In this document: positions 29,776 to 53,958 of the stretch, piece by piece
How the letters are laid out: each line of letters opens with the position of its first letter
How positions within the stretch are numbered: position 1 is the stretch's first letter
NCBI GenBank assembly: GCA_003252395.1
Contig: QKEL01000008.1
Span: forward strand, 310,001-374,000
Length of the DNA: 64,000 bases
Reading direction: 5' to 3'
DNA from: Spirochaetales bacterium
Lineage (GTDB): Bacteria; Spirochaetota; Spirochaetia; Treponematales; Treponemataceae
Program-made: the position numbers and the translations under genes
Notes under the pieces: model-generated
What the model was told of the DNA's origin: nothing
Databases searched by the model: none
The model's input: only the letters and a program-made list of their open reading frames with translations

Positions 29776-31266
29776 ATGAACACGAGCGATTACCTTTTGG
29801 CAAATTCCGACGACGCGTCGATCGCCATTATCGAAACCACTCACGCATACACCTACGGGGAGCTGAAAGCGGCCGCCGCGCGCGTCGCGGGGGAACTCGC
29901 CGGAAGGGATTTGGAGCGAGGCGATCGGATCGGCATCGTGGGGGGGAATTCCCTCTTTTGGGTGGCCTCATATCTCGCCATCATGAAAATGGGCTTCGTC
30001 GCGGTTCCCTTCGCCCTTACGCTCACGGGCGATAACGCCTCCCGCAACGCAAAATGGGCCGATTGCCGGGCCATTCTCATGGACAGGCGGCAGAAGCGCC
30101 AATTTATGTCCGCGTTCGATGGGGCAATTCCCCTCATTTATGACGACGTGCTCTCCGTTCCCGGGGAATCGCATTGGCCCGCGCCCGATCCCCTGTTTTC
30201 CGCCGAAACGGACGCGGCCCTCATGTTCACGTCGGGGACGACTGCCATGCCGAAGGCCGTACGGATAACCCATTCGAATATTCAGGCGAATACCGATTCC
30301 ATCGTGGAATACCTATCGCTTACCGGAACGGATCGCATGCTCGTTATCCTGCCGTTTTTCTACTGTTTCGGTACCTCGTTGCTCCATACCCATCTCCGCG
30401 TGGGCGGCAGCCTGGCGCTGTGCAACAGCTTCACCTTTCCGGAAACGGCCCTGAATATGATGGAAACCCATGAATGCACGGGCTTCGCCGGCGTTCCGTC
30501 CTCCTATCAGCTGCTCCTCCGCATTAGCAGCTTTAAGGAACGTAAGCTTCCCCGCCTCCGCCTTATGCAGCAGGCGGGCGGTAAGCTCCACTCCGTTTTA
30601 ATCGAGGAATTGCTCGAATCAAAGCCCAACGTCGAGGTTTTCGTCATGTACGGGCAAACGGAGGCGACGGCCCGGCTCTCGTATCTTCCCCCCGCCCAAA
30701 TACGCAATAAACTCGGTTCTATCGGCAAGGGGATTCCCGGGGTCACGCTTCGCGTCTTGGACGAATCCGGCGCACCGGTCAAAACAGGCGACGTCGGCGA
30801 GATATTCGCAAGGGGAAAAAACATTTCCCCGGGATACCTGAACGACCCAGAGTCGACCGCCTCGAAATTCGTGGCGGGCGAGCTTCGAACGGGCGATCTC
30901 GCGACGGTCGACGACGAGGGGTATATATTCGTCGTTGACCGAAAGGACGATTTCATCAAATCTTGGGGATACAGGGTCAGTAGCCAGGAAGTGGAATCGT
31001 GCGTCCTGGGCATACGGGATATCGTGTCCGCCGCGGCGGTCGGGGTACCGGACCTCGCGGCAGGCGAATCCATTCACGTATTCGTAACGGTTCGGCCCGA
31101 CGCGGTCGTCCTTCCGGAAGCGGTTATCGAGCATTGCCATGCCAATCTCGGTAAACACATGGTTCCCGAGGCCGTTCACGTCATAAAGGCCCTGCCTTTA
31201 AACGCAAACGGAAAAGTGGTAAAAAACGAGCTTCGGAAAATGGCCGCGGCCGAAACCGCGACCTAG
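29776..31266 (+). CDS. AMP-forming acyl-CoA/ACP ligase
   Basis: 496 residues, class I ANL superfamily. Adenylation motif FTSGTTAMPKAVRITH, YGQTEATAR, the ribose-binding GELRTGDLA and the hinge/C-terminal KDDFIKSWGYRVSSQEVE and NANGKVVKNEL (catalytic Lys) are intact. It activates a carboxylic acid and passes it to CoA or an ACP carrier. With AcpS, two ACPs and an AsnB in the following genes, loading of an acyl or amino acid for polysaccharide decoration is likely (inference). SD AGAGGAA precedes the ATG. Confidence 0.92.
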   Translation: MNTSDYLLANSDDASIAIIETTHAYTYGELKAAAARVAGELAGRDLERGDRIGIVGGNSLFWVASYLAIMKMGFVAVPFALTLTGDNASRNAKWADCRAILMDRRQKRQFMSAFDGAIPLIYDDVLSVPGESHWPAPDPLFSAETDAALMFTSGTTAMPKAVRITHSNIQANTDSIVEYLSLTGTDRMLVILPFFYCFGTSLLHTHLRVGGSLALCNSFTFPETALNMMETHECTGFAGVPSSYQLLLRISSFKERKLPRLRLMQQAGGKLHSVLIEELLESKPNVEVFVMYGQTEATARLSYLPPAQIRNKLGSIGKGIPGVTLRVLDESGAPVKTGDVGEIFARGKNISPGYLNDPESTASKFVAGELRTGDLATVDDEGYIFVVDRKDDFIKSWGYRVSSQEVESCVLGIRDIVSAAAVGVPDLAAGESIHVFVTVRPDAVVLPEAVIEHCHANLGKHMVPEAVHVIKALPLNANGKVVKNELRKMAAAETAT

Positions 31267-31289
31267 CCTCTCGGACGCGGGCCCCGGAA

Positions 31290-32849
31290 TCAGGGGCCGT
31301 AGACCAGCGTCAGGGTAATGATCGAGGTCGTCAGGGCCAATATCGAAGTCAATACGGGAACCCGCCGCTCAAGCTGATAGTACAGGTTGTTTTCCTTTAC
31401 GTGTATCTGGTCTCCCGGCTGTATGGGTTCCGCCTTTTTCCTTTTTTTCCCGTCTTTGTTGTAGACCGTATAGGACCCCCACGAATTCCGCCAAGGATCG
31501 ATCCCGCCTGCCTGAATCATATAATAGGCGGCGGGGGAGTTGGGCCGGAACAATACGGCTCCCGGCGCGTAAACCGCTCCCGAAACCATTACCGTTACGC
31601 ATACGGTGGGAATCACGATCCGCGCGCCCGGGGTCAACGGGAGGTCGGTTGACATATTCGTCCCGGAAAGCAGGGCGGGTATATCCACCCTAGACCCGCT
31701 TAAGGATTCGGAAGAAGAGAAGAAAGACGCGTAACTGAGGTCAGCCATGGGCTGAAAGTACGCGCGAACGTCCTGCAACGCGTCCGAGAGCATCTGACCC
31801 TCTCGAATCGTGTAAGAGAACCGGTTATTCATGCTTTCAGGGGTTTGCGACGCGGCAGGGGCGGCCGACTGAGCCGAGGACGCGAGGGGCTCATTGTCCG
31901 CGCCATTTCCGCCCTGCGCGATAAATGAAGGGTCAAGAACGGCGCCCTCAAACCAGATTATCGGCAGCAGGTCCGATGAGGCGCGGACCAGAATCGTATC
32001 GCCGTCGCCCAAGAGCAAGCCAGACGTATAGCCCTCGGGAAGAGAGACGTATTCTGTTTTACCGCCTATGGAGGCAGAACGGTCGATTCGAATGCGTTTC
32101 ACGTCTGCCTGATTCGTAAGTCCGCCGCCGAAAACCTCGAGCAAGTCCCTCAACCCCTCCGCATCGAGAAGCTCATACGTACCGGGGCGCCGCACTTCCC
32201 CTTCCAACCGAACCGATTTTACCGGCTCGTGGAGCGTTATCGTGTCCCCGGGCTTTACCAGGGGGTCCAGAACCTTCCCCGTGACCATGTCGGGGGAAAG
32301 CAAGTCATATCGCCTGAGAACGCCGTCCTTGGACGTCATTTCCACGTTTCTCATGGAAGTAGAATCGGATTTATAGGCTTTGACGATTTCGCTGAGTCGG
32401 GAAAGGCCCCACGCCGCCGCGTATTGCGTCATGGAGGAACCGTCCCGAACGACTATGCGAAACACGCCCGGGGAAACGATCGTCAGCTCGGGAAGGCTAT
32501 GCGAATAATTCTTTGAAATAAGGTCTTCAACCTTGCGCTTCAGCTCCACGAAGGTGAGGCCGTTCGCGTCGAGTTTCCCGAATACGCCGAGGCTTACCAT
32601 GCCGGTACCGTCGATCTGAACGTCCATAGTGATCAGGTTGCCGTTAGTGGACCTGTATCCGAGCCGGTACACGTCGCCCAGGGTAACCGGGTAATCATGG
32701 CTTGAGATGGCGAGCTGAAGATTCGCGATGCCGCCTCCGGCCGCGGAGGGCATTTGACCCGCGGCCGCCGCGTTCTGGGCGGTAGCGGAGGCAACCGTGA
32801 TCGAAATAAGCAATAAAACAAGGCCGTATCTTTTTAGCACTTTATCCAT
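31290..32849 (-). CDS. polysaccharide export outer-membrane protein (SLBB, Wza-like)
   Basis: 519 residues. Signal peptide (LVLLLISITVASATAQN), then a Poly_export domain (about 45-165; YPVTLGDVYRLGY, MVSLGVFGKLDANGLTFVEL) and SLBB-like beta-grasp repeats (VRLEGEVRRPGTYELL about 210; VTVMVSGAVYAPGAVLF about 425). The C-terminus has a hydrophobic segment ending the protein (TSILALTTSIITLTLVYGP). It should form the outer-membrane exit channel for the EPS made by the neighbouring cluster, working with the Wzz protein. Length is greater than classical Wza, and a Ser/Ala/Gln linker near 325-345 splits the domains. Divergent from acpS with a shared -35. Confidence 0.9.
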   Translation of the reverse strand: MDKVLKRYGLVLLLISITVASATAQNAAAAGQMPSAAGGGIANLQLAISSHDYPVTLGDVYRLGYRSTNGNLITMDVQIDGTGMVSLGVFGKLDANGLTFVELKRKVEDLISKNYSHSLPELTIVSPGVFRIVVRDGSSMTQYAAAWGLSRLSEIVKAYKSDSTSMRNVEMTSKDGVLRRYDLLSPDMVTGKVLDPLVKPGDTITLHEPVKSVRLEGEVRRPGTYELLDAEGLRDLLEVFGGGLTNQADVKRIRIDRSASIGGKTEYVSLPEGYTSGLLLGDGDTILVRASSDLLPIIWFEGAVLDPSFIAQGGNGADNEPLASSAQSAAPAASQTPESMNNRFSYTIREGQMLSDALQDVRAYFQPMADLSYASFFSSSESLSGSRVDIPALLSGTNMSTDLPLTPGARIVIPTVCVTVMVSGAVYAPGAVLFRPNSPAAYYMIQAGGIDPWRNSWGSYTVYNKDGKKRKKAEPIQPGDQIHVKENNLYYQLERRVPVLTSILALTTSIITLTLVYGP

Positions 32850-32893
32850 CCTCGCGGTAACGCCTCCCCGAGAAAGGGGAGCCCGTCAGGCTA

Positions 32894-32951: not shown

Positions 32952-33350
32952 ATGATCCTTGGAGTCGGCACAGATATTCTGGAAACGGGCAGAATTCGCG
33001 CGCTTATCGAAAAAGGCGGCGCGTCGTTTCTTAACCATTGGTTCACGGAAGAAGAAATCCGGTACTGCAACGCGAAGGTAAAGCCCTTCGTGCATTTCGC
33101 CGCCCGCCTCTCCGCTAAGGAAGCGGTCGCGAAATCCATCCGCATTGAGGCGAGCATGCCGGTTTCATGGAAGGATATCTCCATCGAAAAGGACGAAAAC
33201 GGCGCCCCGCGAGCCGTCTTGAGCGGCGGTCCCGCGAGGCGCGCGGGCGATTTGGGCGTGACCGCGATACACGTCTCCATCTCTCACGGCGACGCGTACG
33301 TCACCGCCACGGCCGTGGCGGAAAAAACCGAAGGCGACCCGGTTCAGTGA
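32952..33350 (+). CDS. acpS: holo-ACP synthase
   Basis: 132 residues, normal AcpS length. Transfers 4'-phosphopantetheine from CoA to the conserved Ser of ACPs. Visible: ILGVGTDILETGRIRAL at the N-terminus (metal-binding Asp), FAARLSAKEAVAKS (catalytic Glu/Lys) and VSISHGDAYVTATAV at the end. The start at 32952 is fixed by the -10 6 nt upstream; the longer frame from 32910 runs into the promoter. Being placed among ACP-dependent EPS genes it probably also activates the ACPs encoded at 37624 and 53722. Its 3' end overlaps the converging nadE by 7 nt. Confidence 0.94.
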   Translation: MILGVGTDILETGRIRALIEKGGASFLNHWFTEEEIRYCNAKVKPFVHFAARLSAKEAVAKSIRIEASMPVSWKDISIEKDENGAPRAVLSGGPARRAGDLGVTAIHVSISHGDAYVTATAVAEKTEGDPVQ

Positions 33351-34336
33351 TGAATCTCGGCGACGTCCGCGAAGAGCACCGGATACCGGTGTAAGTATTC
33401 GGTCGTTTTCCTTTTCTGGTCGATATCGCGATACACCCGCACCACCTGTTCTTCCTTCAGATGCGCGGCCGCGGCCACCTGGTCCAGCGGAACGCCGTTA
33501 TTCTTGCCGTAGAGGCACAAATCCATCCGGTCGTAGGGCAATGAAAAATAGAATTCCTCTTGGGACTGCGGCAGCGAGTAGGTATCGGTCGTGGGCGGTC
33601 GCTTTCGAATTTCCGCCGGAACCCCGAGATACTCCGCCAATTGGTATACCTGCGATTTATACAGATGCGCGATTGGCTTGAAATCGGCCGAGCCGTCGCC
33701 CAGTTTCACGAAAAAGCCCTGATCGTATTCGAGGCGGTTTGGGGTTCCCGTCACGGCGTAATTCAATCGGTCGGCGTGATGGTATTCCATCATTTTCCGG
33801 ACGCGCTGCTTGAAATTCGTCGCGGCCACGATGCCCAGATACGCTTCGGTAGAGCATCGTACCTTTATTTCCCTCCCCGCCGGCGTCTGTATGACCAGGG
33901 AGTAGATGCGGAAGGAGTCGGAATCCACCACGCTGGGCAACACGATCTTTGCCTTGTAGCCGGGGCCGAATTCCGGGTAATCGAGGCGAATTGCCTCGTC
34001 TCTGCGGCGGTAGCAACCGGCGGCGTCGAGCATCGGCGAAATTTCCTCCACCACGGAAGCGATGCCGAGCGAGTCGGTGAGCGACTTGCTGAGCTGTATC
34101 GTCTCGGACGACGATTCGCGTTCGGGCATGTGAAGGGCGAATACGCGCTCTTTCCCGAGCGCGGCGACGCACAGGGCGGCGGTTACGCTCGAGTCGATGC
34201 CCCCCGACACGGCGACGACGGCGCCCTTCCGCTTATTGTGCAATAAGTAATTCCTGATACCCTCGCCGATTCGCGCGACTTCTTTCTCCGCGTCGATTCT
34301 CAGCGAATCGGGGCCGAACTTTCCGGTAAAACCCAT
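33344..34336 (-). CDS. nadE: NAD synthase-like PP-loop ATPase
   Basis: 330 residues. The N-type ATP pyrophosphatase motif AVSGGIDSS (42-50) and later conserved segments (NYAVTGTPNRLEYDQGFFVK, GDGSADFKPIAHLYKSQVY) match ammonia-dependent NadE. Housekeeping NadE makes NAD from deamido-NAD; genes of this type also occur beside AsnB in polysaccharide clusters, where they may amidate or adenylate another substrate. It is the last gene of the leftward EPS operon, 15 nt after asnB. Either role is possible; the location favours a pathway role. Confidence 0.88.
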   Translation of the reverse strand: MGFTGKFGPDSLRIDAEKEVARIGEGIRNYLLHNKRKGAVVAVSGGIDSSVTAALCVAALGKERVFALHMPERESSSETIQLSKSLTDSLGIASVVEEISPMLDAAGCYRRRDEAIRLDYPEFGPGYKAKIVLPSVVDSDSFRIYSLVIQTPAGREIKVRCSTEAYLGIVAATNFKQRVRKMMEYHHADRLNYAVTGTPNRLEYDQGFFVKLGDGSADFKPIAHLYKSQVYQLAEYLGVPAEIRKRPPTTDTYSLPQSQEEFYFSLPYDRMDLCLYGKNNGVPLDQVAAAAHLKEEQVVRVYRDIDQKRKTTEYLHRYPVLFADVAEIHH

Positions 34337-34351: not shown

Positions 34352-36340
34352 CTAACGTTTTATTACTCGATCAATGACGGTCATGGGTTCCGGGGGACGG
34401 TCTGGACCGAATCCCGAGCCATTACCCGCAATAAACTGAAAATACGCCAATTGCGTTGAAAGAACCGCGAGCACGCGCATGTTGTCGGTGTTGCTCATCT
34501 TCAGGCCCGATACGCCGGAACATTTCGCGAATAGGCCCGCAACCGTTTTCGGTTCGAAGACGCCCGCCTCGGCCAACGCCTTTTCGGAGGTTACCTCGCG
34601 TATCCAATCCTCGCCCTCGCCGCCGAAAAAACACGCCGCGTCCGGGGCGCGGTACGGTTGCTTCGGCCTGCGCAGGATAGAGGGCGGAACGAGATCGGCA
34701 AACTCCTTTTTGAGGATGTGTTTCTCGTCCAAAACGAATAGCTTCTGCCAGGACGGCAGCCCATGCGCAAGCTTCATGAATTCCGGGTCAAGGAACGGAA
34801 AACGGCCCTCGACCGAATTTCCCATCAGCATGCGGTCCCCTTGGGAAGAGAGAATGTACCCGGGGAGCAGCGTCGTCAATTCGAGCCATTGGGCCCGCGA
34901 TAGGGGATCCCAGGATTCCGAACCGGGCGGCATCGCGTCGATGACCGCGCTCTCGCATGCCGGCAGGTCCGGTGACGGCCGATACCGCGGGGTAAGCAGG
35001 CCCTTGATGGCCTTCGTGGCGTCCCAACGGGGGCGGTGGGAAAGGGCAGGATCGGACAGGTCCGTATTGCGCCCGAAGAAGGCCTTGGCGAACGCGGGGG
35101 TCTTGCCCGGGGAGCGCTCCATCCACGGGTACAGCAGTTCCGCGGCGCGAAAGCGCTTTGAGGAGGCCGGATCGCGACCCCAGAAGGCGCGAACCTTCGC
35201 CTCGCGAAAGATATCGTAACCGGCCAGCATTTCGTCCGAGCCCTCGCCGGTAACGACGACCTTGTAGCCGGCCTTCCTCACGGAGCGCGAAAGGAGGAAC
35301 ATCGGCGCCGGGCCCGAACGCAGCACCGGGCGTTCCGTATGCCAAACGACTTCGGGAAACGCGCGCGCGATATCCGCCGACCCTACCTCGACGCTCCGAT
35401 GTTCCGTTCCCAGGCGGCTTGACATCTCCCTCTGGTAGGCTCCCTCATCGAACTCCGAATCGGTAAACCGAAGGGAGAACGTATTGAGCGGCGTGGAGGT
35501 ATAGTTGGCGATGATCGCGGAGGTGACCGACGAATCGATCCCGCCGGACAGGTACGCGCCGACGGGAACGTCGCTGCGAAGGAATCGCAACCGAGTGGCC
35601 TCCACGAGCGAGGCGCGGAGGCGCTCGCCGTTTTCTTCGATACTTGCGGCGTTTTCCTCGCCCCGGGTAGGAAACCTGGTTTCCCAGAATGCCTTTATAT
35701 CCAATTTCCCGTCCCGGAAGCGCGCCCAATGGCCCGGTTCAAGCTCCCGCACGCCCGCGTATACGCTTACGGGAGCCACAGTGCTCCAAAAGGTAAACGT
35801 TTGGTCAAGCCCGACCGGGTCGAAAGCCCGTTGCAGGTCGGGATCCGCAAACAGGGCCTTTACCTCGGAGGCGAAGAGAAACCGGTCGCCGGAGAATGCG
35901 TAATGGAGGGGAACGATGCCCGCCTGGTCCCGTGACAGGATCAATTCGGCCTTTTGGGCGTCCCAAAGCGCGATCGCCCACTGCCCATTGAACCGCTTAA
36001 AGCAATCGGGGCCCCATTGTTCCCACGCGTGAACGATTACTTCGGTATCGGACGCGGTTTTCATCCGGTGGCCCAGGGCAGCCAGCTCGCGGGAAAGCTC
36101 TACGTAATTGAAAATCTCGCCGTTAAAGCTGATCCATAGATCCCCGCCTTCGTTGCTCAAGGGCTGAACCCCGCCTGCGGCGTCGATTATGGCCAAGCGG
36201 GTATGGCCGAGCGCCGCGAAGCGATCCCGGTAATAGCCTGAGCCATCCGGGCCGCGATGGGCCAAGCGGCCGATCATTTTCACGATAAGTTCCGGTTCGG
36301 GAACGCGATAGGGCGATACGAATCCGCAAATGCCGCACAT
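34352..36340 (-). CDS. asnB: asparagine synthase-like glutamine amidotransferase
   Basis: 662 residues. N-terminal nucleophile glutaminase domain (MCGICGFVSPYR, Cys 2; RLAIIDAAGGVQPL; SFNGEIFNYVE) and C-terminal synthetase domain with the PP-loop LSGGIDSSVTSA near residue 265 and TGEGSDEMLAGY. Both active sites look intact. It moves ammonia from glutamine to an adenylated carboxylate. AsnB paralogues of this type are regular members of exosortase-A/EPS loci, where they are thought to amidate a sugar or peptide substrate. The gene is 2 nt after an ACP-like gene and 15 nt before nadE, so the amidation target may be carrier-bound (inference). Confidence 0.94.
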   Translation of the reverse strand: MCGICGFVSPYRVPEPELIVKMIGRLAHRGPDGSGYYRDRFAALGHTRLAIIDAAGGVQPLSNEGGDLWISFNGEIFNYVELSRELAALGHRMKTASDTEVIVHAWEQWGPDCFKRFNGQWAIALWDAQKAELILSRDQAGIVPLHYAFSGDRFLFASEVKALFADPDLQRAFDPVGLDQTFTFWSTVAPVSVYAGVRELEPGHWARFRDGKLDIKAFWETRFPTRGEENAASIEENGERLRASLVEATRLRFLRSDVPVGAYLSGGIDSSVTSAIIANYTSTPLNTFSLRFTDSEFDEGAYQREMSSRLGTEHRSVEVGSADIARAFPEVVWHTERPVLRSGPAPMFLLSRSVRKAGYKVVVTGEGSDEMLAGYDIFREAKVRAFWGRDPASSKRFRAAELLYPWMERSPGKTPAFAKAFFGRNTDLSDPALSHRPRWDATKAIKGLLTPRYRPSPDLPACESAVIDAMPPGSESWDPLSRAQWLELTTLLPGYILSSQGDRMLMGNSVEGRFPFLDPEFMKLAHGLPSWQKLFVLDEKHILKKEFADLVPPSILRRPKQPYRAPDAACFFGGEGEDWIREVTSEKALAEAGVFEPKTVAGLFAKCSGVSGLKMSNTDNMRVLAVLSTQLAYFQFIAGNGSGFGPDRPPEPMTVIDRVIKR

Positions 36341-36342: not shown

Positions 36343-36573
36343 TTATATACCCATCCGCGTTTGAATGAACCGGGCCAAGCCCTCGCTCGTATCCAACCGG
36401 GCGCCTTGCATATCCGCGTCGGACACGCTCAGATCAAGGCAATCCTCCAAAAAAAGGGTAGCCTCGACCGCCCGCAGTTCCGGGTCGTCGTACCCGCCGC
36501 AAGAGGCGAGAAAATCGCGCACAAGCGCCTCAACTCCGTCTTTTTTCATATAGTCTCGCTGATTGCCCCGCAA
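36343..36573 (-). CDS. acyl carrier protein-like protein lacking the phosphopantetheine Ser
   Basis: 76 residues from a TTG start at 36573, chosen because AAGGAG lies 9 nt upstream; the internal ATG at 36549 has only a weak SD. Helical pattern and the C-terminal half (FLEDCLDLSVSDADM...LARFI) match ACPs, but the DSL prosthetic site reads PEL (31-33), Glu 32 replacing Ser. It cannot carry phosphopantetheine in the usual way, so it may be a structural subunit for AsnB or a decoy ACP. Located between Wzz (6 nt) and asnB (2 nt). Similarity to ACP is by eye. Confidence 0.7.
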   Translation of the reverse strand: MRGNQRDYMKKDGVEALVRDFLASCGGYDDPELRAVEATLFLEDCLDLSVSDADMQGARLDTSEGLARFIQTRMGI

Positions 36574-36579: not shown

Positions 36580-37509
36580 TTACTCCTTCCCGCGGGCGTG
36601 GATAAAGGACTTAAGCATATTCAGGGCGATGGCCAACGCCGCGCTTCCCAAGAAGCTCCCCATAAAGATCATAATCGCGAATTTTTTCCGATTGGGTCCT
36701 GACTTTATGTCAGGCACTTCCGCGAGCTCGAATACCTGGAAAATCGGTTCCACCTCGGGCGCGAGCCGGGCGGCCTCGTACTGCGGGTACAGCGCGTTGT
36801 AAATGCGTTCCTGTACGTCGAGTTGGGAACTATAATCCGAATACCTCGGGTCGATATCGGGAATTATTTTCAGCTTGTTCCGCAGGGAGTCGATGTCTTT
36901 TTTCACCGCGGTGATTTTTTGCTCGAGCAATTCCTGCTGTTCTTCCCTCGCGGAGTTTCTTTTTTGGTTATACCATTCGTCCAGCAGGCTGATCATGCGG
37001 TTGACCATGTTTTTCGCCAATACGGGATCCACGGCGACGTAGCCGATCCTCAAGAGGCCGGTGGTCGAAGAATAGGAGAACTGAAAGCGCGAAAGGAGGG
37101 CCTCCCGCAGTTTCTCCTTGCTCGTCGTCTCGAAGGCGTCCTTCATCTTGAACTCGTCGATCAGGCGGTCGAGGATCGTGCGGCTTCGCATCATCTCCAT
37201 GACCTGCGAACCATAATCGAAGCTCCGGGGCACTCCGGTAGAGGTTATGCCGAGGGCCGCCATGATCGAGTTGCTGAAATCCGTTTGCGAGTTCTGCTGA
37301 ATGACGATCGTGGCCCTCGCGGTATAGTAATTCGGCATGGGGCTTCTGTTGGGGGGAAGGGTAAGGCTTACGGCGAAAAAGGCGACGGCGGCCCCCGTCG
37401 TCAACGCGGTGAAGCCTATTATCATCCACTTATAGCGGAACAATACCGCCCAATAATACAGTATCGTTTCTATGAGGCTTTTTTCCGTCGTGTCAGAAGA
37501 ACTATCCAT
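36580..37509 (-). CDS. Wzz-type chain-length determinant
   Basis: 309 residues from the ATG at 37509 (AAGGCGG about 8-10 nt upstream). Two membrane helices, about 25-48 (WMIIGFTALTTGAAVAFFAV) and about 280-303 (FAIMIFMGSFLGSAALAIAL), flank a periplasmic region with a long coiled coil (about 165-235). The proline-containing segment before the second helix fits the Wzz family; there is no C-terminal tyrosine kinase domain. It should set EPS chain length and touch the SLBB exporter. Confidence 0.88.
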   Translation of the reverse strand: MDSSSDTTEKSLIETILYYWAVLFRYKWMIIGFTALTTGAAVAFFAVSLTLPPNRSPMPNYYTARATIVIQQNSQTDFSNSIMAALGITSTGVPRSFDYGSQVMEMMRSRTILDRLIDEFKMKDAFETTSKEKLREALLSRFQFSYSSTTGLLRIGYVAVDPVLAKNMVNRMISLLDEWYNQKRNSAREEQQELLEQKITAVKKDIDSLRNKLKIIPDIDPRYSDYSSQLDVQERIYNALYPQYEAARLAPEVEPIFQVFELAEVPDIKSGPNRKKFAIMIFMGSFLGSAALAIALNMLKSFIHARGKE

Positions 37510-37605
37510 TGCTATCCCGCCTTTATGTATCCCAATCCCCGCGGCCAACGGCCGAAGGGACGTCAAGCGCGCGGGCAGCCGAGGCCGGGCGCGCGCCGCT
37601 TTCCC

Positions 37606-37625
37606 AAGGTCCGAAGGCGGACCTT
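37606..37625 (-). other. stem-loop at end of ACP gene
   Basis: Perfect 8-bp inverted repeat AAGGTCCG/CGGACCTT with a 4-nt loop, starting in the ACP stop codon. No T-run, so read-through to wzz is expected; it may protect the upstream mRNA and explain higher ACP expression within the operon. Confidence 0.5.
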
Positions 37626-37878
37626 ATTTCTTCGAAAGGATAAAGCGCGACAGGTTGTTCAGTGAGTCCAGGTTTTCGGGAACCAGCTCTTTGTCGTCCA
37701 GCGATATGTCGTATTTGTTTTCGATATACTCGATCAGTTCCATGATGCCCGTCGAATCGATGATTCCCCGTTCAATGAACGAATCGTCCTCATGGATGGG
37801 TTCGGATTCGTTCCCGAACATAAAGTTCTCAACTATGTACCCTTTGACGGCTTCCTTGATCTGCTGCGCGTTTTCCAT
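37624..37878 (-). CDS. acyl carrier protein
   Basis: 84 residues. The phosphopantetheine Ser 42 sits in GIIDSTGIMELIEYIE, the normal ACP context, and the rest has the acidic four-helix pattern. It probably carries an acyl or aminoacyl group made by one of the AMP ligases in the cluster. SD GGAGAG before the ATG. It lies between the SGNH-like lipoprotein gene (16 nt) and wzz (114 nt, containing a stem-loop). Confidence 0.9.
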   Translation of the reverse strand: MENAQQIKEAVKGYIVENFMFGNESEPIHEDDSFIERGIIDSTGIMELIEYIENKYDISLDDKELVPENLDSLNNLSRFILSKK

Positions 37879-41415: not shown

Positions 41416-41478
41416 GATAAACCTTTCCTGACGTAATTGTTTGCCATTCAGTGTAGTCCGATACCTATCGAAAAGCAT

Positions 41479-46304: not shown

Positions 46305-47780
46305 TCAAAATTGGAAATAGATAAAGTCGTTCATGCTGAACACGCCGAACCACAGGATCGCGCCGAGGAGCCCGTAATAGAGCGTCCAGCGGACGACGGC
46401 CGGTTTGGTCTTCAGCCCTTCGATAATGTTCCACCTACCCTGAATCAAGTGGATCGCCTCCATGAAAACGATGAGGAGCGTCGCTAACTCAAGGTCCTTA
46501 TTCTCGAGCCCGAAACCGTGGATAAAAAGCCGCAGGCCGTCCATATGCAGAAGCTGGCCCCAGCCGGTATGGAGGTGGCCCAGGATATACGCGGCGTCGC
46601 CTATATCGTTCGCCCGGAAGAAGATCCACGCAAAGCACGTGAGGGCAAAGGTAATGCCGACCTGCAATACCGCGTGAAGGCGCGGTACCCGATCAAGCCG
46701 TACGGCCTTGACGACCGAGCGCCTCCACTCCTTGGTGAGCGACGACGCTATGAGATAGCAGCCGTTGAGGGAGCCCCAAATCAGGAAGGTCCAATTGGCG
46801 CCGTGCCAGAGCCCGCTGACCGTGAAGGTAATGAACAGATTGAGCATCACCCGCCCGGTCGCGGCCCTGTTTCCGCCGAGGGGTATGTAAAGATAGTCCT
46901 TGAACCAGGAAGAAAGCGAAATGTGCCAACGTTTCCAGAACTCCTGTATGCTCCGGGAAAAATACGGCCGGTCGAAATTCCGCATGAGGCGGAATCCCAT
47001 TACGCGGGCCGAACCGATGGCGATATCCGAATAGCCCGAGAAATCGCAGAATATCTGGAAGGCGAAAAACACGGTGGCCACGGCGAACGCCGCGCCGTTA
47101 AAAGACTCGGGCGAGTTGAACACGGCGTTGACGAGGGGCGAAAGCCTGTCGGCGATAACGACCTTTTTGAACATGCCCCACGCCATCAACTTGAGGCCGT
47201 CCGCGGCGTTATCGTAATCGAAGGCGCGACGCGTCTTGAATTGGGGCAATAGGTTCGCGGTACGCTCGATGGGACCGGCCACCAGCTGGGGAAAGAACGT
47301 TACGAAGAGGGCATAGGTGATGAAATTCCGCTCCGCGGGAACGGTTCCGCGGTACACGTCTATCGAATAGCCCAGGGCCTGAAAGGTATAGAAGGAAATG
47401 CCCACGGGCAACAGGACGTTCAATGACGACGGCTTCCAGGGAATGCCGAGTAACGAAGAAAGGCTGAATACGCTTTCCGCGAAGAAGTTATAGTACTTGA
47501 ACGCGATGAGGATCGAAAGGTTCAAGAAGAGGGAGAGAAAAAGGACCGCCCCCTTATGGAAGCCCTTCCGTTCCATCAGGATGCCGCTCAGCCAGGTTAT
47601 GGCGACCGACGCGAGCATGAGGAGCACGTACCACGGGTTCCAGCACATGTAGAAAAAGAGGCTCGCCGCCAGTAAGAGCAGCCGGGGCAGCCATTCGGGA
47701 TACCGGGAGCGAGACGCGAAAAAAAACGCGATAACGACTATCGGAAAAAACACAACGAATTGCAAAGAGTTGAAAAGCAT
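46305..47780 (-). CDS. MBOAT O-acyltransferase (AlgI-like)
   Basis: 491 residues with about ten membrane segments. AlgI hallmarks: FNSLQFVVFFPIVV at the start, FPQLVAGPIER, EFWKRWHISLSSWFKDYLYIPLGGNR and the catalytic-His region GLWHGANWTFLIWG. It moves acetyl groups from acetyl-CoA across the membrane. Paired with the AlgJ-like gene 11 nt downstream, as in alginate and other O-acetylated polymers. Confidence 0.95.
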   Translation of the reverse strand: MLFNSLQFVVFFPIVVIAFFFASRSRYPEWLPRLLLLAASLFFYMCWNPWYVLLMLASVAITWLSGILMERKGFHKGAVLFLSLFLNLSILIAFKYYNFFAESVFSLSSLLGIPWKPSSLNVLLPVGISFYTFQALGYSIDVYRGTVPAERNFITYALFVTFFPQLVAGPIERTANLLPQFKTRRAFDYDNAADGLKLMAWGMFKKVVIADRLSPLVNAVFNSPESFNGAAFAVATVFFAFQIFCDFSGYSDIAIGSARVMGFRLMRNFDRPYFSRSIQEFWKRWHISLSSWFKDYLYIPLGGNRAATGRVMLNLFITFTVSGLWHGANWTFLIWGSLNGCYLIASSLTKEWRRSVVKAVRLDRVPRLHAVLQVGITFALTCFAWIFFRANDIGDAAYILGHLHTGWGQLLHMDGLRLFIHGFGLENKDLELATLLIVFMEAIHLIQGRWNIIEGLKTKPAVVRWTLYYGLLGAILWFGVFSMNDFIYFQF

Positions 47781-47852: not shown

Positions 47853-49055
47853 TCAGCTGCCCAAGAGCAGCAGCCGAAGGCCCGGGGGAAGGGTCTTCTG
47901 GACGAACTTCGAGAAGAGGATGGGCAAACAGAGTCCCGAGGCGAGCAGGGCGATAACGCCCACGGGGCCAACGATATGGCTCATGCCGAACAATTTATAC
48001 AGAAGCCGGTGAACGACCGTAAGCGTCGCGCCGTGGAGGAGGAATATCTGAAGCGAGTACTTCCCGAGCGTATCCAGGAGCGACTTCAGCGGGATGCGCC
48101 GCAGGAAAAGGCCAAAAAAGAGGAAAATGGCCGCGATCGTCCACGCGAAGGTACCGATTTTCCATTCCACCCAGGACAAGGCAGTCGCCTCGAAAGTGCC
48201 CAACCCCAAATTCCGCAATCCATAACCGCAGAGCAATCCGCGTTCCAGGAGCATCAGGAATAGCGACAGCGCGGAAAGCGCGACGATTGCCCGGTACCGT
48301 TCGATCAATAACCGCCTAAAAGAGTCCGAATGCGTCGCGGCCCAAATGCCAAGGGTAAAGGAAAACAGGAAACGGGGGAACAAAACCTCCGGGACCGGCC
48401 CCAAGCCTAAGATACCGGGTAAAGCGGGCAACGCGCCAATGGACGCAAAAAGATACCGGTAATCGTACGCATGCACCAGCAATTGGATCGCCAACGTCGC
48501 GGAAAGCGTTATGTATGGCCTTGACGCTACCGCCGGGATGAGGAAATAGGATAAAACGTAATACTGGACGATCAAGACGATAAAGAAATAGCCCATCTGC
48601 CCGGTTCCGGTAAGCAGTTTCAGGGCGAAATCGGCCGCCGTCCAGCCTCCAATCCCCTTTCGCCAACTAAAGAGCAAGCCGACCGTTGACCAAAAAAGCA
48701 TCGGCAGGAGCAACTTTTTGGAGGCGCTCCAAATGGACTTCCAGGTACGGGGGGTCGAAAGAAGGTAATAGCCCGAAAGGAACAGGAACAAGGGCACGGA
48801 AAAACGGCAAATTTCCAGGATGAGCGATTTAGAGGCGGACAGGATTTGCCAGGGCCCCACGGCGACGAGGGAGACGGAGAGGGAATCCCGGCGCGAAACG
48901 TCGTCGGCGAGCAGCATTATCGCCGCATGGGCCAATACGACGAAAAAGATGGCGAAGCCCCTCAGGGGTAAAATAACCTTAAACGAGGCCAAGGGTTTCG
49001 CCTGCCGCTTGCCCGCAATAGCGCCGAACGCGTCGGTTACTATCTTACGAACCAT
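47853..49055 (-). CDS. acyltransferase-3 family membrane protein
   Basis: 400 residues from the ATG at 49055, preceded by GGGGTG; an ATG at 49070, 3 nt after the Wzx stop, is an alternative. About ten membrane segments; start LRGFAIFFVVLAHAAIML carries the conserved Arg and His of the family (R..H pair), with PLFLFLSGYYLL next. Such enzymes O-acetylate or succinylate sugars. It is a second acylation activity in the operon besides AlgI/AlgJ. Confidence 0.88.
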   Translation of the reverse strand: MVRKIVTDAFGAIAGKRQAKPLASFKVILPLRGFAIFFVVLAHAAIMLLADDVSRRDSLSVSLVAVGPWQILSASKSLILEICRFSVPLFLFLSGYYLLSTPRTWKSIWSASKKLLLPMLFWSTVGLLFSWRKGIGGWTAADFALKLLTGTGQMGYFFIVLIVQYYVLSYFLIPAVASRPYITLSATLAIQLLVHAYDYRYLFASIGALPALPGILGLGPVPEVLFPRFLFSFTLGIWAATHSDSFRRLLIERYRAIVALSALSLFLMLLERGLLCGYGLRNLGLGTFEATALSWVEWKIGTFAWTIAAIFLFFGLFLRRIPLKSLLDTLGKYSLQIFLLHGATLTVVHRLLYKLFGMSHIVGPVGVIALLASGLCLPILFSKFVQKTLPPGLRLLLLGS

Positions 49056-49073
49056 AAGTACACCCCACATCGC

Positions 49074-50414
49074 CTACGCAAAGGCGGCTGAGCCCGGCAA
49101 TCCCATGCCAAATAGATAGCGGATCGCGAAAAGCAATCCGGTGAAAAGCACTAAGGCGGCCGTCAGGAAAAGGTCCTGCCGGATCAACGATAATCGCTCC
49201 CTAACCAAGCCCGCGGAGATAATCAGGTACGAGGGCAGGTCATTGAAGGCGATCGCGACGATAACGCCGAACGCGCCGCCGAGTCTATAGGACAAGGGGA
49301 TGAAGATAACCATGTACACAAACTTGGCCAAGTTACCCAAAGTCGCGTACATGGGCCGCCCTATCGCCAAAAGGCTGCCCTCGACCGTCGATAAGAGAAT
49401 CAAGGGCCACATCCCGAATACCAGCATGGGAAGAATCCACGAAGCCGCCTGATACCGGGCGTCGTACAGGATATTAATGGCCACGTCGCCGAAGCTTCCG
49501 AAAAGGGCAAGAAGGGCCGTGACCGCCAAAAGGAGCCCGCCCCGCGCCTTTTGAATGCGAAGGCGCAACTCGTCCCGGGAAAGGTCCGCGTATTTGACGA
49601 TGAGGGGATAAATGACCTTACCGTTCAGCCGGTTCAAGACCTGCTTCGGCAATTCGGCCAGGTTCACCGCGATACCGTATACCCCCAACCAGGTCATCGA
49701 AAACAGCTTGCCGAGCATGAACCGATCGGCCTGGGAAGCGAGGAACATAAGCGCGGTGGAAAGCATAATCCACTTCCCGAAATTGAGAAGCTCGCCCACC
49801 GACGTCTTTTCGAGAACGAGACGATTGGGGGTCTCCTTGTTCAATACGTGGCTCCAGACGGTACGCATGATCGCCGCCACGAGATCCCCGGCCAAAAGGG
49901 CCCAAATATTCCTGAAGACCAGCGCGATACCGATCATGGATACCAAGGAGCAGACCTGGATGACCAATTCCATGATCGTCAGGGTTTTCTGCTGGAGCTC
50001 GCGATTCATCAGGGAGAGGGACGTAGAGCGACATCCGTCGGGAACGCTGATCAACCCGATAAGGGGGATGATATAGAAAAGGGCGGGCTCCTTATAAATT
50101 ACCGAAATGGGATAGGCGATAATCGCCGACAGGACCGCCAGGAATACGCTTCTGATGATTTGAATCGTCCAGGCGGTATTGAGAAAGACGGGTTCCTTGG
50201 CGCGGGCGCTGCGGATGATCGCGGGTTCGAGGCCCACGTCCGAGAACAGGCCCAGGCCGATATAGAATACCCTGGCCAGCATGATGATCCCGAAAATCTC
50301 AGGAACGAGAAGGCGGGTCAGGACGATATTCCCGGCCAGCCGGATAACCTGGGATAGGCCAAACCCGACTACGACGAAAGACGCGGCCTCGAAGGCCTTT
50401 TTCCCGTATTTCAT
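49074..50414 (-). CDS. Wzx-type polysaccharide flippase
   Basis: 446 residues, 12-14 hydrophobic segments of the MOP/MATE exporter superfamily; N-terminus SFVVVGFGLSQVIRLAGNIVLTRLL and FGIIMLARVFYIGL are typical of O-antigen translocases. It should flip lipid-linked repeat units to the periplasm. Overlaps the acetyltransferase gene by 4 nt. Confidence 0.9.
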   Translation of the reverse strand: MKYGKKAFEAASFVVVGFGLSQVIRLAGNIVLTRLLVPEIFGIIMLARVFYIGLGLFSDVGLEPAIIRSARAKEPVFLNTAWTIQIIRSVFLAVLSAIIAYPISVIYKEPALFYIIPLIGLISVPDGCRSTSLSLMNRELQQKTLTIMELVIQVCSLVSMIGIALVFRNIWALLAGDLVAAIMRTVWSHVLNKETPNRLVLEKTSVGELLNFGKWIMLSTALMFLASQADRFMLGKLFSMTWLGVYGIAVNLAELPKQVLNRLNGKVIYPLIVKYADLSRDELRLRIQKARGGLLLAVTALLALFGSFGDVAINILYDARYQAASWILPMLVFGMWPLILLSTVEGSLLAIGRPMYATLGNLAKFVYMVIFIPLSYRLGGAFGVIVAIAFNDLPSYLIISAGLVRERLSLIRQDLFLTAALVLFTGLLFAIRYLFGMGLPGSAAFA

Positions 50415-50929
50415 TTTTGGCCCTCTTCCTTCGCGGCCGGGAAATGCCAGACTTTCGCCGGCACGCCCATCGCGGTCGCGTTGTCGGGAATATTGGTAAT
50501 GACCAGGGAATTGGCGGCGATATGCACGTTATTGCCGATCCGGATATTCCCGAGCACCTTCGCCCCCGCGCCGATAAACACGTCGTCGCCGATTACCGGC
50601 GCCCCTTCTACCATATTCGTGCCGATGGTCACGTCGTGCATGATGCCGCACCGGTCGCCGATGACGGCGTCGGGATGAATCGCGATGTTTCCGCAATGGA
50701 TGAGATGAAGGTCCTTTCCGATTTTCGTTTCCCTATAGAGCGTAATGCCGCTCGTTATCAGGATAAAGAAAAGGTTCAAGCCGTAAAATTTGCTCAATAT
50801 CCAGCGAATCGGCTTGAAGCGAATCCCGTCAAGCCAAACCCCGTACCGGTAATTCCATACGGCCCATAGGGCGGGGTTCAATACCGAGGCGTCGTGGCGC
50901 CTATAGTCAGCGGCCATTTCTTTAAGCAT
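50411..50929 (-). CDS. serine acetyltransferase-like hexapeptide O-acetyltransferase
   Basis: 172 residues. Left-handed beta-helix of the CysE/colanic-acid transferase type from about residue 70: IHCGNIAIHPDAVIGDRCGI, VIGDDVFIGAGAKVLGNIRIG, NVHIAANSLVI. The catalytic His is in LIHCGN or GIMHDVTIG. Cytoplasmic; probably acetylates a sugar or serine for EPS assembly. A role in cysteine synthesis is possible but no cysK is nearby. Confidence 0.88.
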   Translation of the reverse strand: MLKEMAADYRRHDASVLNPALWAVWNYRYGVWLDGIRFKPIRWILSKFYGLNLFFILITSGITLYRETKIGKDLHLIHCGNIAIHPDAVIGDRCGIMHDVTIGTNMVEGAPVIGDDVFIGAGAKVLGNIRIGNNVHIAANSLVITNIPDNATAMGVPAKVWHFPAAKEEGQK

Positions 50930-50955: not shown

Positions 50956-52197
50956 TCATGGCCGAACGGAAATTTCCGAAAGCGCGAACGGTTTTCTGAT
51001 GACGCGGCTTTCGCCACGCTCCCAGCCGATCTCGGCGGGAGTTTCATGCCCGAGAAAGAAAAGCGGCGAGGCGGTAAACCCGTAAGCGCCGGAATTCTCC
51101 ACGCAGATCAAGTCGCCCACCCGCGTCTCCGGAAGGCTCGCCCCGAAGCCCAAAAGGTCTATCGGCGTGCACAGGCATCCCGCGAGTTCGGTGGTTTTCT
51201 GCGTCCCGCCCGGGTTGGAAAGGTTCTTGAGCGGATAGTTCCGCTTGATCGTCTGGCCCAAATTTCCGCTCGCCGAATTGTGCTGATGCATTCCCCCGTC
51301 GAGGATCGCGTACGTCTTTCCCCTCGATTCCTTGACGGCAAGCACGCGGGAAAGATACCTTCCGGGCGGGGAGACGAGATACCGCCCCAACTCGATAACG
51401 AAGGACGTTTCGGGATACGCTTGTGCATATTCACTGACCGCGGCGGCGATGCCCCGGCCGGCGGAGGCCACGTCAAGTTCGGCCTGGCCTTCGTAATACG
51501 GAACGCCGAATCCGCCGCCCAGGTTTATCTTCGGCGCCTTCAGGGCGCCGGCGGCGCCCAGTTCCGCGGCGATTCGGAGGCTATTTTTCACGTTCGCCAC
51601 GAGGGCTTCCGGGTCGAGGCATTGGGTTCCGGCGTATACGTGCAATCCGGCGTACGCGGCCCTTCCCGCGGAGACTTCCTTCGCGATCTCTTGCATTACG
51701 CTCGGTGCCTCTTCCTCGTCCACGCCGAATTGCGTCGGCTTGCCGCCCATCTTCAGGGCAAAGGGGCCGGTCAGCTCAAGGGGGTTAACCCGAAGGCTGA
51801 TCCGGGGGACCGTATGGGTACGTTCGCCGGCAGCCAGTATTCGCCTTAGGTCATCGCGCGATTCCACGCTTATCGAGCCGCACCCGACAGTGGCGGCAAG
51901 CTCCAGTTCTTTGTCGGTTTTACCGGGGCCGGCGAAGCTTAGGGCAGAGGCGGGCCAACCCGCGTTCACGCAAAGCCGGATCTCCCCTCCGGACGATACG
52001 TCCAATCCGTCGGCCCAACGCAGCGCGTCTTTCAGTATTTCGGGATTGGGATTCGCCTTCACCGCGTAAAGGAGACCGATGGCGGGCCCCAACGATTGCC
52101 TGAAAAGGCCGGCCCGATCCCGAATTTCATCGAAATCGTACACGTAGACCGGGGTGCCGTACCGCTCCGCCACGGCGATAAGTTCATCGTCACGCAT
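50956..52197 (-). CDS. PLP-dependent decarboxylase (DapDC/ODC family, EPS-associated)
   Basis: 413 residues, fold III PLP enzyme. The PLP Lys 47 is in YAVKANPNP, HVYAGTQCLDP carries the conserved His, the phosphate-binding loop is INLGGGFGVPYY, and the C-terminal active-site element is LICVENSGAYGF. It decarboxylates an amino acid, free or carrier-bound. It overlaps the ligase gene by 8 nt. A decarboxylase, acyl-CoA ligase and ACP trio of this kind is known from exosortase-A-associated EPS loci, where its product is not settled. Not likely to be housekeeping LysA because of this setting. Confidence 0.9.
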   Translation of the reverse strand: MRDDELIAVAERYGTPVYVYDFDEIRDRAGLFRQSLGPAIGLLYAVKANPNPEILKDALRWADGLDVSSGGEIRLCVNAGWPASALSFAGPGKTDKELELAATVGCGSISVESRDDLRRILAAGERTHTVPRISLRVNPLELTGPFALKMGGKPTQFGVDEEEAPSVMQEIAKEVSAGRAAYAGLHVYAGTQCLDPEALVANVKNSLRIAAELGAAGALKAPKINLGGGFGVPYYEGQAELDVASAGRGIAAAVSEYAQAYPETSFVIELGRYLVSPPGRYLSRVLAVKESRGKTYAILDGGMHQHNSASGNLGQTIKRNYPLKNLSNPGGTQKTTELAGCLCTPIDLLGFGASLPETRVGDLICVENSGAYGFTASPLFFLGHETPAEIGWERGESRVIRKPFALSEISVRP

Positions 52198-53725
52198 CGG
52201 CGCCGTACTCCTTCACGACCGCGGGACGGTCTATCTTGCCGCTCGCCGTCTTCGGAAATGCCTTAACGGCAAGAACGTCCCTCGGAACGAGATAGCTCGG
52301 CGCGGATCTCTTGCAGTGGTCCACGAGTTGCGCGACGTTGTCGTCGCCCTTGAACGCGACCACGGCCCTGATCCTGTACCCGAGCTCGTCGTCGGGCACG
52401 CCGAACACCACGGATTCGGCCACGAGACCGCTCGAGGCAAGAAGCTCCTCAACCTCGGTGGGCGAAACCCGATAGCCGGAAATCTTAATCATGTTATCTT
52501 TCCTGCCCACGTAGTACAGGAATCCGTCTTCGTCTTTGCGAACCAAATCGCCGGAATAAACCGCGGTTTCAAGAAACCTGTTTTCCTTGGGCAGGAGGGG
52601 ATTGGGGCGGTACACTTCCGCGGTCTTCGAGGGATTGTTCCAATACCCCCGGGCTATCAGGGCGCCCCGGTGTATGAGCTCACCGGTTTCGCCGGCCGCG
52701 CAGGGCGTTCCGTCCTCGCGCACGATTTCGACCTGCACGCCGGGAATCGCCTTACCCATGGATTCGGGCCGCGCGTCGACCTCGGAGGGATCGAGATAAG
52801 TCGAACGAAAGGCTTCCGTCAGGCCGTACATGAGAAAGAGATCGGTCGACGGGAAGCACTCCCTGATCCGCCTGACGGTCGGAACGGGGATCTTTCCCCC
52901 GGAATTGGTAATATAACGGAGAGAGGAAAAATCCATCTCCGCGAGAATTTTATCGAGCTTCGTGAGCTTGGGATTGAATACGGCCGCCCATATCGTGGGT
53001 ATAGCCGCCAAACCGGTAATCCGCTCTTCGGCGATCAGCTTCAGCATGGGGCCGGGAACGAAAAAATGATGGAGCACGATACTCGCGCCCGCCTTGACGG
53101 CGGAGGTGAGCTGATTGAGGCCATAGTCAAAATTGAGGGGCAAGACGCCGAGTAATCGGTCCTTTTCCGTAATCCCCAGGTATTCCGAGACGGAATCGAT
53201 ACCGTCCAGCAAATTCCGGTGGGTTATGACGATGCCTTTGGGAAGCCCGGTAGAACCGGAAGTATAGATGATGGTCGCGATATCGTCGGTAATCGCGCGC
53301 GAAGGCGCTAGGCCCGAAGGATCGGCGCGGGAGTCGGACTTGAGCGCGGCGAGGCCGAGCGCCTCGATTGCCCGAAGCGCCGTTTCGGAACAGGTTTCCC
53401 CGTACACCAGGACGCTGACGCCGCAATCGCGCAGGATATGCTCGACTTGGTTGTACTTCAACTGATCGGAAATGAGGACGAACGCGCGATCGGCGATCGA
53501 GCACCCGTATATCCATACCGCCTGCGCAAGGCCCTTCTCCGTAAATATGGCGATCCTATCGCCCCGTGCGGAGCGGCCCAACCCGAGTAAGGCGGCCGAA
53601 GCGCCCCGGGCTTCGCGCAAGAAGGCGGCGTACGAGAGGGCCTCGCCGTTATGGCGAATCGCCTCTTTTTCGGGCAACCGCGCGGCGCTCCGTTCGAGGG
53701 TACAATGCAAAAGGTTGCCGGTCAT
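52190..53725 (-). CDS. AMP-forming acyl-CoA ligase (EPS-associated)
   Basis: 511 residues, ANL superfamily. IIYTSGSTGLPKGIVITH, YGLTEAFRSTYL, the GDLVRKDEDGF region and the C-terminal TASGKIDRP (catalytic Lys) are intact. It activates a carboxylate and passes it to CoA or to the ACP whose gene overlaps its start by ATGA. Resembles the ligase of exosortase-A clusters. A paralogue lies at 29776. Confidence 0.92.
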   Translation of the reverse strand: MTGNLLHCTLERSAARLPEKEAIRHNGEALSYAAFLREARGASAALLGLGRSARGDRIAIFTEKGLAQAVWIYGCSIADRAFVLISDQLKYNQVEHILRDCGVSVLVYGETCSETALRAIEALGLAALKSDSRADPSGLAPSRAITDDIATIIYTSGSTGLPKGIVITHRNLLDGIDSVSEYLGITEKDRLLGVLPLNFDYGLNQLTSAVKAGASIVLHHFFVPGPMLKLIAEERITGLAAIPTIWAAVFNPKLTKLDKILAEMDFSSLRYITNSGGKIPVPTVRRIRECFPSTDLFLMYGLTEAFRSTYLDPSEVDARPESMGKAIPGVQVEIVREDGTPCAAGETGELIHRGALIARGYWNNPSKTAEVYRPNPLLPKENRFLETAVYSGDLVRKDEDGFLYYVGRKDNMIKISGYRVSPTEVEELLASSGLVAESVVFGVPDDELGYRIRAVVAFKGDDNVAQLVDHCKRSAPSYLVPRDVLAVKAFPKTASGKIDRPAVVKEYGADA

Positions 53726-53958
53726 TTCAGTTTCGGCCCCACAAACGAGGCGATCGCGTCGAAAGACTTGAAATTGGCCTCGGAAATTTCGTCGGGATCT
53801 ACCTCTACGTCAAAACTCGATTCCAGATGGAACACCAGTTCCAACACGCCCATGGAATCAAGTATTCCCAACGCGAATAGGTTGTCCGCATCCGCGATTT
53901 CCCGCTCGGTTTTTGCCTTAAAGTATTCACGCAAGCTGTCTTTGACTTTTTGAATCAT
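53722..53958 (-). CDS. acyl carrier protein
   Basis: 78 residues. Phosphopantetheine Ser 35 in GILDSMGVLELVF. ATG at 53958, 6 nt after GGAAGGG; a GTG just before it is in frame but too close to the SD. First gene of the eight-gene operon down to the AlgJ-like gene and overlapping the ligase, so it is the probable acceptor of that enzyme's product. Confidence 0.92.
   Translation of the reverse strand: MIQKVKDSLREYFKAKTEREIADADNLFALGILDSMGVLELVFHLESSFDVEVDPDEISEANFKSFDAIASFVGPKLK

Follow-up and report, generated by a model that had tools for sequence, protein, structure and literature searches.

Genes of the kind curated as exosortase A-associated occur in a spirochaete genome in which no exosortase can be found. 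They lie in a polysaccharide locus within a 64,000-nucleotide stretch of a Spirochaetales bacterium (hereafter the window; contig QKEL01000008.1, here contig 2, bases 310001-374000), in assembly GCA_003252395.1, which comprises 3.41 Mb in 15 contigs and is 92.9% complete. The original prediction listed two adenosine monophosphate (AMP) ligases, two intact acyl carrier proteins (ACPs), an ACP-like protein, AcpS, a pyridoxal phosphate (PLP) decarboxylase, AsnB and NadE together with Wzx, Wzy-like, Wzz, SLBB, AlgI/AlgJ and glycosyltransferase genes. Profile searches and open reading frame (ORF) translations of the window recovered all of them at or near the expected positions (Table 1). The best explanation of these sequences is that the locus makes a decorated surface polysaccharide with two separate acyl-supply modules. 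Module B, in which overlapping ACP, ligase and decarboxylase genes occupy 50956-53958, would supply a beta-alanyl group, and module A, built around the other ACP and ligase, would supply an acid and amides. We consider this two-module explanation as a whole moderately probable.

The ligase-decarboxylase pair of module B is known as "exosortase A-associated" (TIGR03098/TIGR03099); NCBIfam curates both models by that association only, and their names carry no substrate. The residues of the ligase suggest one. With numbering verified on the Protein Data Bank (PDB) construct of VinN, the alignment places Asp230, Tyr231, Ser299, Phe330 and Arg331 in the module B ligase. In VinN, Asp230 binds the amino group and Ser299 and Arg331 bind the alpha-carboxyl group of the beta-activated (methyl)aspartate, and the bolagladin ligase BolO has identical residues (PMC7756342). 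The short beta13-beta14 loop, which a review describes (PMC11253843), has the VinN length in the window ligase, whereas that of the alpha-amino-acid domain LgrA A2 is two residues longer and lacks the Arg. The other exosortase-type ligases that we collected likewise retain Asp230, Arg331 and the shortened loop, and have either Ser or Thr at position 299; the VinN-like code is therefore a property of the ligase family and not of the window ligase alone. In the ligase tree, the Termititenax homologue, to which the module B ligase is 55% identical, is its sister (support 100/98), and both belong to the exosortase-type clade, apart from VinN.

Among proteins of solved structure, the module B decarboxylase scores highest with BtrK, the enzyme that decarboxylates L-glutamyl-[BtrI ACP] (279.7 bits), compared with 129 bits for the best chain that we take to be a true diaminopimelate decarboxylase. 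A CTPxD motif is found in the window enzyme, in BtrK and in all ligase-linked homologues, whereas ordinary LysA has CESxD. Against the LysA model TIGR01048, the window enzyme scores 226 bits, short of the cut-off of 298; other LysA-like genes exist elsewhere in the genome, the best of which, at 288 bits, also falls just below it. A midpoint-rooted tree of 55 decarboxylases, in which some branches are long, including that of the genome's own LysA, joins the window sequence first to Termititenax (100/99), then to Scalindua (99/90) and then to the proteobacterial exosortase-type group (97/94). BtrK, the decarboxylases beside close VinN homologues (by which VinO was represented) and LysA, including the candidate from the same genome, are placed elsewhere. 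Since both trees give Termititenax as the sister, the ligase and decarboxylase genes probably moved together.

No exosortase (PF09721) was matched anywhere in the genome assembly, although 17 of 52 other genomes gave exosortase matches in the identical search. Similarly, PEP-CTERM proteins (PF07589) number 0 in this genome, in Termititenax and in genome G042 of the same phylum, with 54 and 8 in two exosortase genomes that served as positive controls, and no sortase-like tail was seen in the C-termini of the large secreted proteins. The original prediction had seen neither family in the window and had named an exosortase just beyond its ends as one finding that would count against it; the absence extends to the whole assembly. 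The ligase reaches 585 bits on TIGR03098, whose cut-off is 592.35 and on which its Termititenax sister scores 618; the decarboxylase reaches 407 bits on TIGR03099, short of 478; and AsnB reaches 402 bits on the exosortase-A amidotransferase model TIGR03108, far short of 817. The locus resembles an exosortase A (XrtA)/PEP-CTERM locus in having the ligase, decarboxylase and ACP adjacent among polysaccharide genes, but differs from it in the genome's lack of exosortase and PEP-CTERM, in the unmet TIGR03099 and TIGR03108 cut-offs, and in that no FemAB gene was recognised in the window. The earlier designation of an exosortase-A-type set is accordingly kept for ligase, decarboxylase and ACP and dropped for AsnB. 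These sequences show that the pair does not depend on an exosortase, and the exosortase-free loci that acyl supply can be separated from the sortase.

The wider distribution of the pair is consistent with this. It was found in Margulisbacteria (Termititenax), Planctomycetota (Scalindua), Myxococcota and many Pseudomonadota, and because the set recurs across several phyla, the grouping of ACP, ligase and decarboxylase is not due to chance. Fifteen genomes with the pair have an exosortase and 11 do not; among the latter are four isolate records of Rhizobiales and three Gammaproteobacteria metagenome-assembled genomes that may be incomplete. Besides the window, exosortase-free cassettes occur in Termititenax, in Rhizobiales and in G042, whose cassette groups with Rhizobiales in both the ligase and decarboxylase trees, which suggests a separate acquisition. 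FemAB/GNAT-type proteins adjoin the cassette in exosortase loci, a hexapeptide acyltransferase adjoins it in the window, and in the exosortase-free Rhizobiales the predicted fold of a neighbour matches GNAT N-acyltransferases (a moderate model, pLDDT 69). An acyltransferase of this kind would accept the beta-alanyl group carried by the ACP.

Several related loci were encountered in these searches. BtrK-like decarboxylases stand beside an ATP-grasp protein in Ruminiclostridium (L064, L067, L070) and Paenibacillus (L071), with an ACP as well in the Ruminiclostridium loci; these look like butirosin-type cassettes for glutamate and gamma-aminobutyrate (GABA). In Streptomyces diastatochromogenes (L084:6721-8277), the locus of an exosortase/polysaccharide-type ligase (368 bits) holds further adenylation genes. 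Decarboxylases that have a CTSxD motif and no accompanying ligase form a separate clade, which occurs in Spirochaetales and G381 (L076-L078, L080, L006) and in Woesearchaeota (L079), in a conserved neighbourhood (gene clusters C8, C13, C14 and C35).

Read from the gene content and the residue patterns, the steps of module B would be as follows. AcpS would activate the module B ACP; the ligase would adenylate the beta-carboxyl group of L-aspartate, or of a close amino diacid, and load it onto this ACP to give isoaspartyl-ACP; and the decarboxylase would remove the alpha-carboxyl group of the ACP-bound residue, leaving beta-alanyl-ACP. It is very likely that an ACP-bound amino diacid is decarboxylated to an omega-aminoacyl-ACP; aspartate is probably the acid in question, with beta-alanyl-ACP as the product. 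An acyltransferase may then move the beta-alanyl group to an amine or hydroxyl of a sugar precursor, before or after export by Wzx; the acceptor on the sugar is a guess. As to the enzyme, the left-handed beta-helix acyltransferase encoded next to the decarboxylase is a tentative candidate, and the MBOAT protein a more doubtful one; both assignments are guesses. An orthologue of the former (248 bits) occurs in a polysaccharide locus of genome G143 beside an adenylation-thiolation-thioesterase protein. This 855-aa protein (L185:431-2998) also adjoins acyltransferase-3, CysE-like, Wzy-like and SGNH genes, and is apparently an alternative means of aminoacyl supply in a related polysaccharide locus. 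The PDB matches of the MBOAT protein are DltB/teichoic acid D-alanyltransferase only (100 bits); as a true DltB it was rejected, its 161 bits on TIGR04091 falling well below the cut-off of 375.

This chemistry itself is already known from vicenistatin, bolagladin and butirosin. VinN/VinL/VinO and BolO/BolC/BolN likewise combine a free-standing Asp230/Ser299/Arg331 ligase, a discrete ACP and a PLP decarboxylase for an ACP-bound amino diacid, and in the window the partner ACP and the BtrK-like decarboxylase are similarly adjacent to the ligase, with overlapping genes. BolO and BolN were compared here through their published description: BolO/BolC/BolN form a ligase/ACP/BtrK-like set, and a bolN mutant is not rescued by beta-alanine (PMC7756342; also PMC11284099, PMC11253843). 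Those sets differ in that they feed polyketide synthase (PKS) or nonribosomal peptide synthetase (NRPS) lines, whereas the window cassette lies among polysaccharide genes, which include those for Wzx, MBOAT and hexapeptide acyltransferases, and its ligase falls in the exosortase-type clade rather than with VinN. With BtrI/BtrK of butirosin, the predicted window decarboxylase for an aminoacyl-ACP has its subfamily and its CTPxD motif in common; butirosin, however, uses glutamate, the BtrK-type loci found carry an ATP-grasp protein, and BtrK belongs to another clade. Dlt D-alanylation (DltA-DltD) offers a possible layout in its ligase, carrier protein, MBOAT and SGNH-type partner, but has no counterpart of the decarboxylase, and the DltB cut-off is not reached. 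In the linking-sugar pathway of Porphyromonas and Tannerella (Wbp/Vim), an AsnB-like amidotransferase for a uronamide is combined with an aminoacyl group on an amino sugar, a pairing that the window may share: AsnB relatives (WbpS) make uronamides, and in Porphyromonas VimA attaches Ser or Gly to the amino sugar (PMC7468200), in contrast to the beta-alanyl group proposed here. The window itself yielded no recognisable homologue of VimA or FemAB; PF13480 matched only at C1, C4 and C2:549943.

Module A comprises the second ACP and ligase together with AsnB, a variant NadE and an SGNH-fold lipoprotein. An AlphaFold2 model of the lipoprotein (pLDDT 80) matches sialate O-acetylesterases, other SGNH esterases and a lipopolysaccharide acetyltransferase domain. 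Among 393 genomes of the phylum, the SGNH lipoprotein family occurs in nine and the NadE variant in eight, with both in five (hypergeometric P = 9e-8, uncorrected for phylogenetic relatedness). ACPs of the module A type recur near SGNH or NadE genes, accompanied in varying combinations by AsnB, ligase A or an amidotransferase of the WbuX-like PP-loop type. Thus, ACP, AsnB, ligase and NadE are contiguous in G053; NadE, ACP, SGNH, a WbuX-like protein and a ligase lie together in G139; and AsnB, ACP, SGNH, a WbuX-like protein and a ligase do so in G042. This comparison across the phylum, which the original prediction had recommended, bears out that the genes travel as a group. The module A ligases, including that of the window and those of four other genomes, form one clade (100/99) in which the Arg is kept and the amino-binding Asp is absent. 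The window NadE was ruled out as the housekeeping enzyme, a separate 669-aa NAD synthase being encoded elsewhere (C9:24913), and neither ACP is the housekeeping one, the best PF00550 match lying on contig 1. From these comparisons, module A is a rare unit with several occurrences in the phylum; it would supply an ACP-bound acid and one or more amides, and a (uron)amide is probably part of its product. Its ligase would load a different acid, without a recognised amino group, onto the module A ACP; AsnB and the NadE paralogue would make amides, either a uronamide or an amidated acyl group; and once the chain is exported, the SGNH lipoprotein would act on it. Two further ORFs were noted just right of the window. 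One encodes a 660-aa protein that combines four cadherin-like domains with another copy of the module A SGNH domain (L193:6995-8977; contig 2, about 380995-382977). The other, of 688 aa, has a weak Asn_synthase domain but no NCBIfam match at E<=1e-30 (L193:1866-3932; about 375866-377932) and is possibly a further amidotransferase-like protein of the locus.

Several points weigh against the two-module explanation. The ligase lies 7 bits and the decarboxylase 71 bits below the cut-offs of their own models, position 330 of the ligase is Phe where VinN has Lys, and some exosortase-type ligases carry Ala231 and Thr299, so that a single substrate for all of them is uncertain. The putative beta-helix transferase resembles acetyl-CoA enzymes, and the chemistry assigned to module A is mostly guesswork. 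Moreover, BtrK, the nearest solved decarboxylase, uses glutamyl-ACP, and a GABA product is therefore possible. The loading of glutamate through its gamma-carboxyl group, or of another amino diacid, to give GABA-ACP as in butirosin, where BtrK decarboxylates glutamyl-BtrI (PMC7857480), is accordingly the alternative we take most seriously, unlikely as it is: the BtrK-type loci of Clostridia and Paenibacillus pair the decarboxylase with an ATP-grasp protein where the window has a ligase with the VinN code, and the window decarboxylase falls outside the BtrK clade. That the product is a small molecule, soluble or secreted, of the bolagladin or macrolactam kind and independent of the polysaccharide is rather improbable. 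The described relatives with this chemistry do serve natural products, and Streptomyces and Micromonospora loci (L082-L086) carry the cassette beside large biosynthetic-type genes; profile searches of the window, however, found no PKS or NRPS in the cluster, module B is transcribed in the same direction as the Wzx, acyltransferase-3, MBOAT and AlgX genes and almost adjoins them, and its relatives lie in polysaccharide loci.

Exosortase-associated ligase and decarboxylase families in an assembly that is not quite complete could also denote a remnant exosortase-A locus, its exosortase recently lost or hidden in a gap. Against this stand the genome's count of PEP-CTERM proteins, none compared with 8-54 in exosortase genomes, and the equally exosortase-free cassettes of Termititenax, G042 and four isolate Rhizobiales genomes, which make it quite improbable. 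Marginally less credible than a remnant is the single chain of the original prediction, in which one acyl group is loaded, decarboxylated and then amidated by AsnB and NadE. All the genes lie within 25 kb, but several genomes in which no TIGR03099-like decarboxylase was found associate AsnB and NadE with the other ACP and ligase, and beta-alanyl-ACP offers no free carboxyl group for amidation. Of that chain, the loading of an amino acid onto an ACP and its decarboxylation there are supported, and the amidation step is not. Finally, an ordinary LysA and a fatty-acid ligase brought together in the locus by chance, which the original prediction had named as a possible refutation, would have identical superfamily folds. 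The shortfall on TIGR01048, the CTPxD motif in place of CESxD, the separate LysA-like genes, the decarboxylase tree and the Asp at the amino-binding position of the ligase leave this very improbable. Two acyl-supply modules remain our preferred reading.

The arrangement of the genes is set out in Table 1. One leftward run (53958 down to 45238) comprises ACP, AMP ligase, PLP decarboxylase, CysE-like hexapeptide acyltransferase, Wzx, acyltransferase-3, MBOAT and the AlgX-like protein; another (41478 down to 33344) comprises GT4, the Wzy-like protein, SGNH lipoprotein, ACP, the Wzz-domain protein, the ACP-like protein without the Ser, AsnB and NadE. Neighbouring genes within both runs either overlap or are separated by 2-72 bases, which makes two transcription units plausible. 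The SLBB gene follows the second run, past AcpS, which is on the forward strand like the module A ligase; a small ORF antisense to AcpS (32891-33280, reverse strand) was discarded. Polysaccharide genes continue right of the window with an epimerase, a deacetylase, a GT2 and an initiating sugar transferase. Three large secreted proteins (41616-44195, forward; 59254-61089 and 61090-63168, reverse) have in common a C-terminal motif like GNxRxxGxxxDIGAYE (choice-of-anchor Q type) and are possibly surface cargo of the polysaccharide locus. Adjoining the ACP/ligase operon, 55183-59118 (reverse) encodes a 1311-aa lipoprotein-like protein with 14 Listeria-Bacteroides repeats.

Table 1. Features of the polysaccharide locus, in window coordinates, with the evidence for each assignment
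Feature	Position	Strand	Evidence
LIG_A, AMP ligase (module A)	29776..31266	+	PF00501 228 bits; Cys in place of amino-binding Asp; Arg331 equivalent present
SLBB/Wza-like export protein	31290..32849	-	PF10531 46 bits
AcpS-type phosphopantetheinyl transferase	32952..33350 (about)	+	PF01648 54 bits; one of two in genome
Variant NadE (PRK00876 type)	33344..34336	-	NF002048 501 bits, above cut-off 313
AsnB-type glutamine amidotransferase	34352..36340	-	TIGR01536 468 bits, above cut-off 267; TIGR03108 402 bits
ACP-like protein without phosphopantetheine Ser	36343..36549	-	No family match; aligns to second half of ACP; DSx motif missing
Wzz-domain chain-length protein	36580..37566	-	PF02706 31.7 bits; XrtA chain-length model 70 bits, cut-off 279
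ACP_A, carrier protein (module A)	37624..37878	-	PF00550 24.9 bits; IIDSTG, VPENLDS signature; conserved in seven other module A loci
SGNH-fold lipoprotein	37895..38728	-	H58-x-S60 and D252-x-x-H255 invariant (alignment of 8 homologues)
Wzy-like polymerase (weak)	38797..40158	-	PF04932 16.3 bits, below cut-off (relaxed search); G143 polysaccharide-locus orthologue 362 bits
GT4 glycosyltransferase, first gene of its run	40180..41478	-	PF13692 82 bits
AlgX/AlgJ-like SGNH partner of MBOAT	45238..46293	-	PF16822 60 bits; start placed at internal ATG
MBOAT (AlgI/DltB-like) O-acyltransferase	46305..47780	-	PF03062 111 bits; DltB model TIGR04091 161 bits, cut-off 375
Acyltransferase-3 membrane O-acyltransferase	47853..49070	-	PF01757 91.5 bits
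Wzx-type flippase	49074..50414	-	PF13440 155 bits
Left-handed beta-helix (CysE/EpsC/WcaB-like) acyltransferase, candidate for taking the beta-alanyl group	50411..50929	-	PF00132; EpsC 109 bits, cut-off 150
DEC, predicted BtrK/VinO-type PLP decarboxylase for ACP-bound substrate, TIGR03099-like (module B)	50956..52197	-	BtrK match, CTPxD, tree
LIG_B, predicted aspartate-type beta-carboxyl AMP ligase, TIGR03098-like (module B)	52190..53725	-	TIGR03098 585 bits; VinN-type residues
ACP_B, discrete acyl carrier protein (module B)	53722..53958	-	PF00550 34.6 bits; attachment Ser retained (ILDSMG) in alignment; 4-base overlap with ligase gene

The original prediction regarded the locus as the best candidate in the window for an undescribed pathway, which is too strong for module B, given the precedents in natural product biosynthesis, and fairer for module A. 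In the open-licence literature, with most subscription journals outside this scope, we found no paper on the function of TIGR03098/TIGR03099 or on this chemistry in polysaccharide loci. The residue code gives both families a concrete, testable substrate, aspartate converted to beta-alanyl-ACP. The FemAB and TIGR03108 genes of exosortase loci have been speculated to make an amino-acid-modified sugar (PMC7468200); if our reading is true, module B supplies the amino acid donor for it, and this bears on the open question of what exosortases attach proteins to. Speculatively, and with low confidence, the exosortase A-associated set may be a general supply of beta-alanyl-ACP for surface polysaccharides. 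In exosortase bacteria, a beta-alanyl sugar might then offer the primary amine that is joined to the C terminus of the sorted protein, comparable to the seryl sugar in Porphyromonas, while in the phylum of the window, Termititenax and Rhizobiales it would serve as decoration without a sortase, and module A would add another pathway, so far undescribed, for ACP-based amidation. The exosortase-free loci offer simpler systems for finding the decorated sugar, and the NadE/AsnB/ACP/SGNH module gives the search for an amidated surface polysaccharide a new target.

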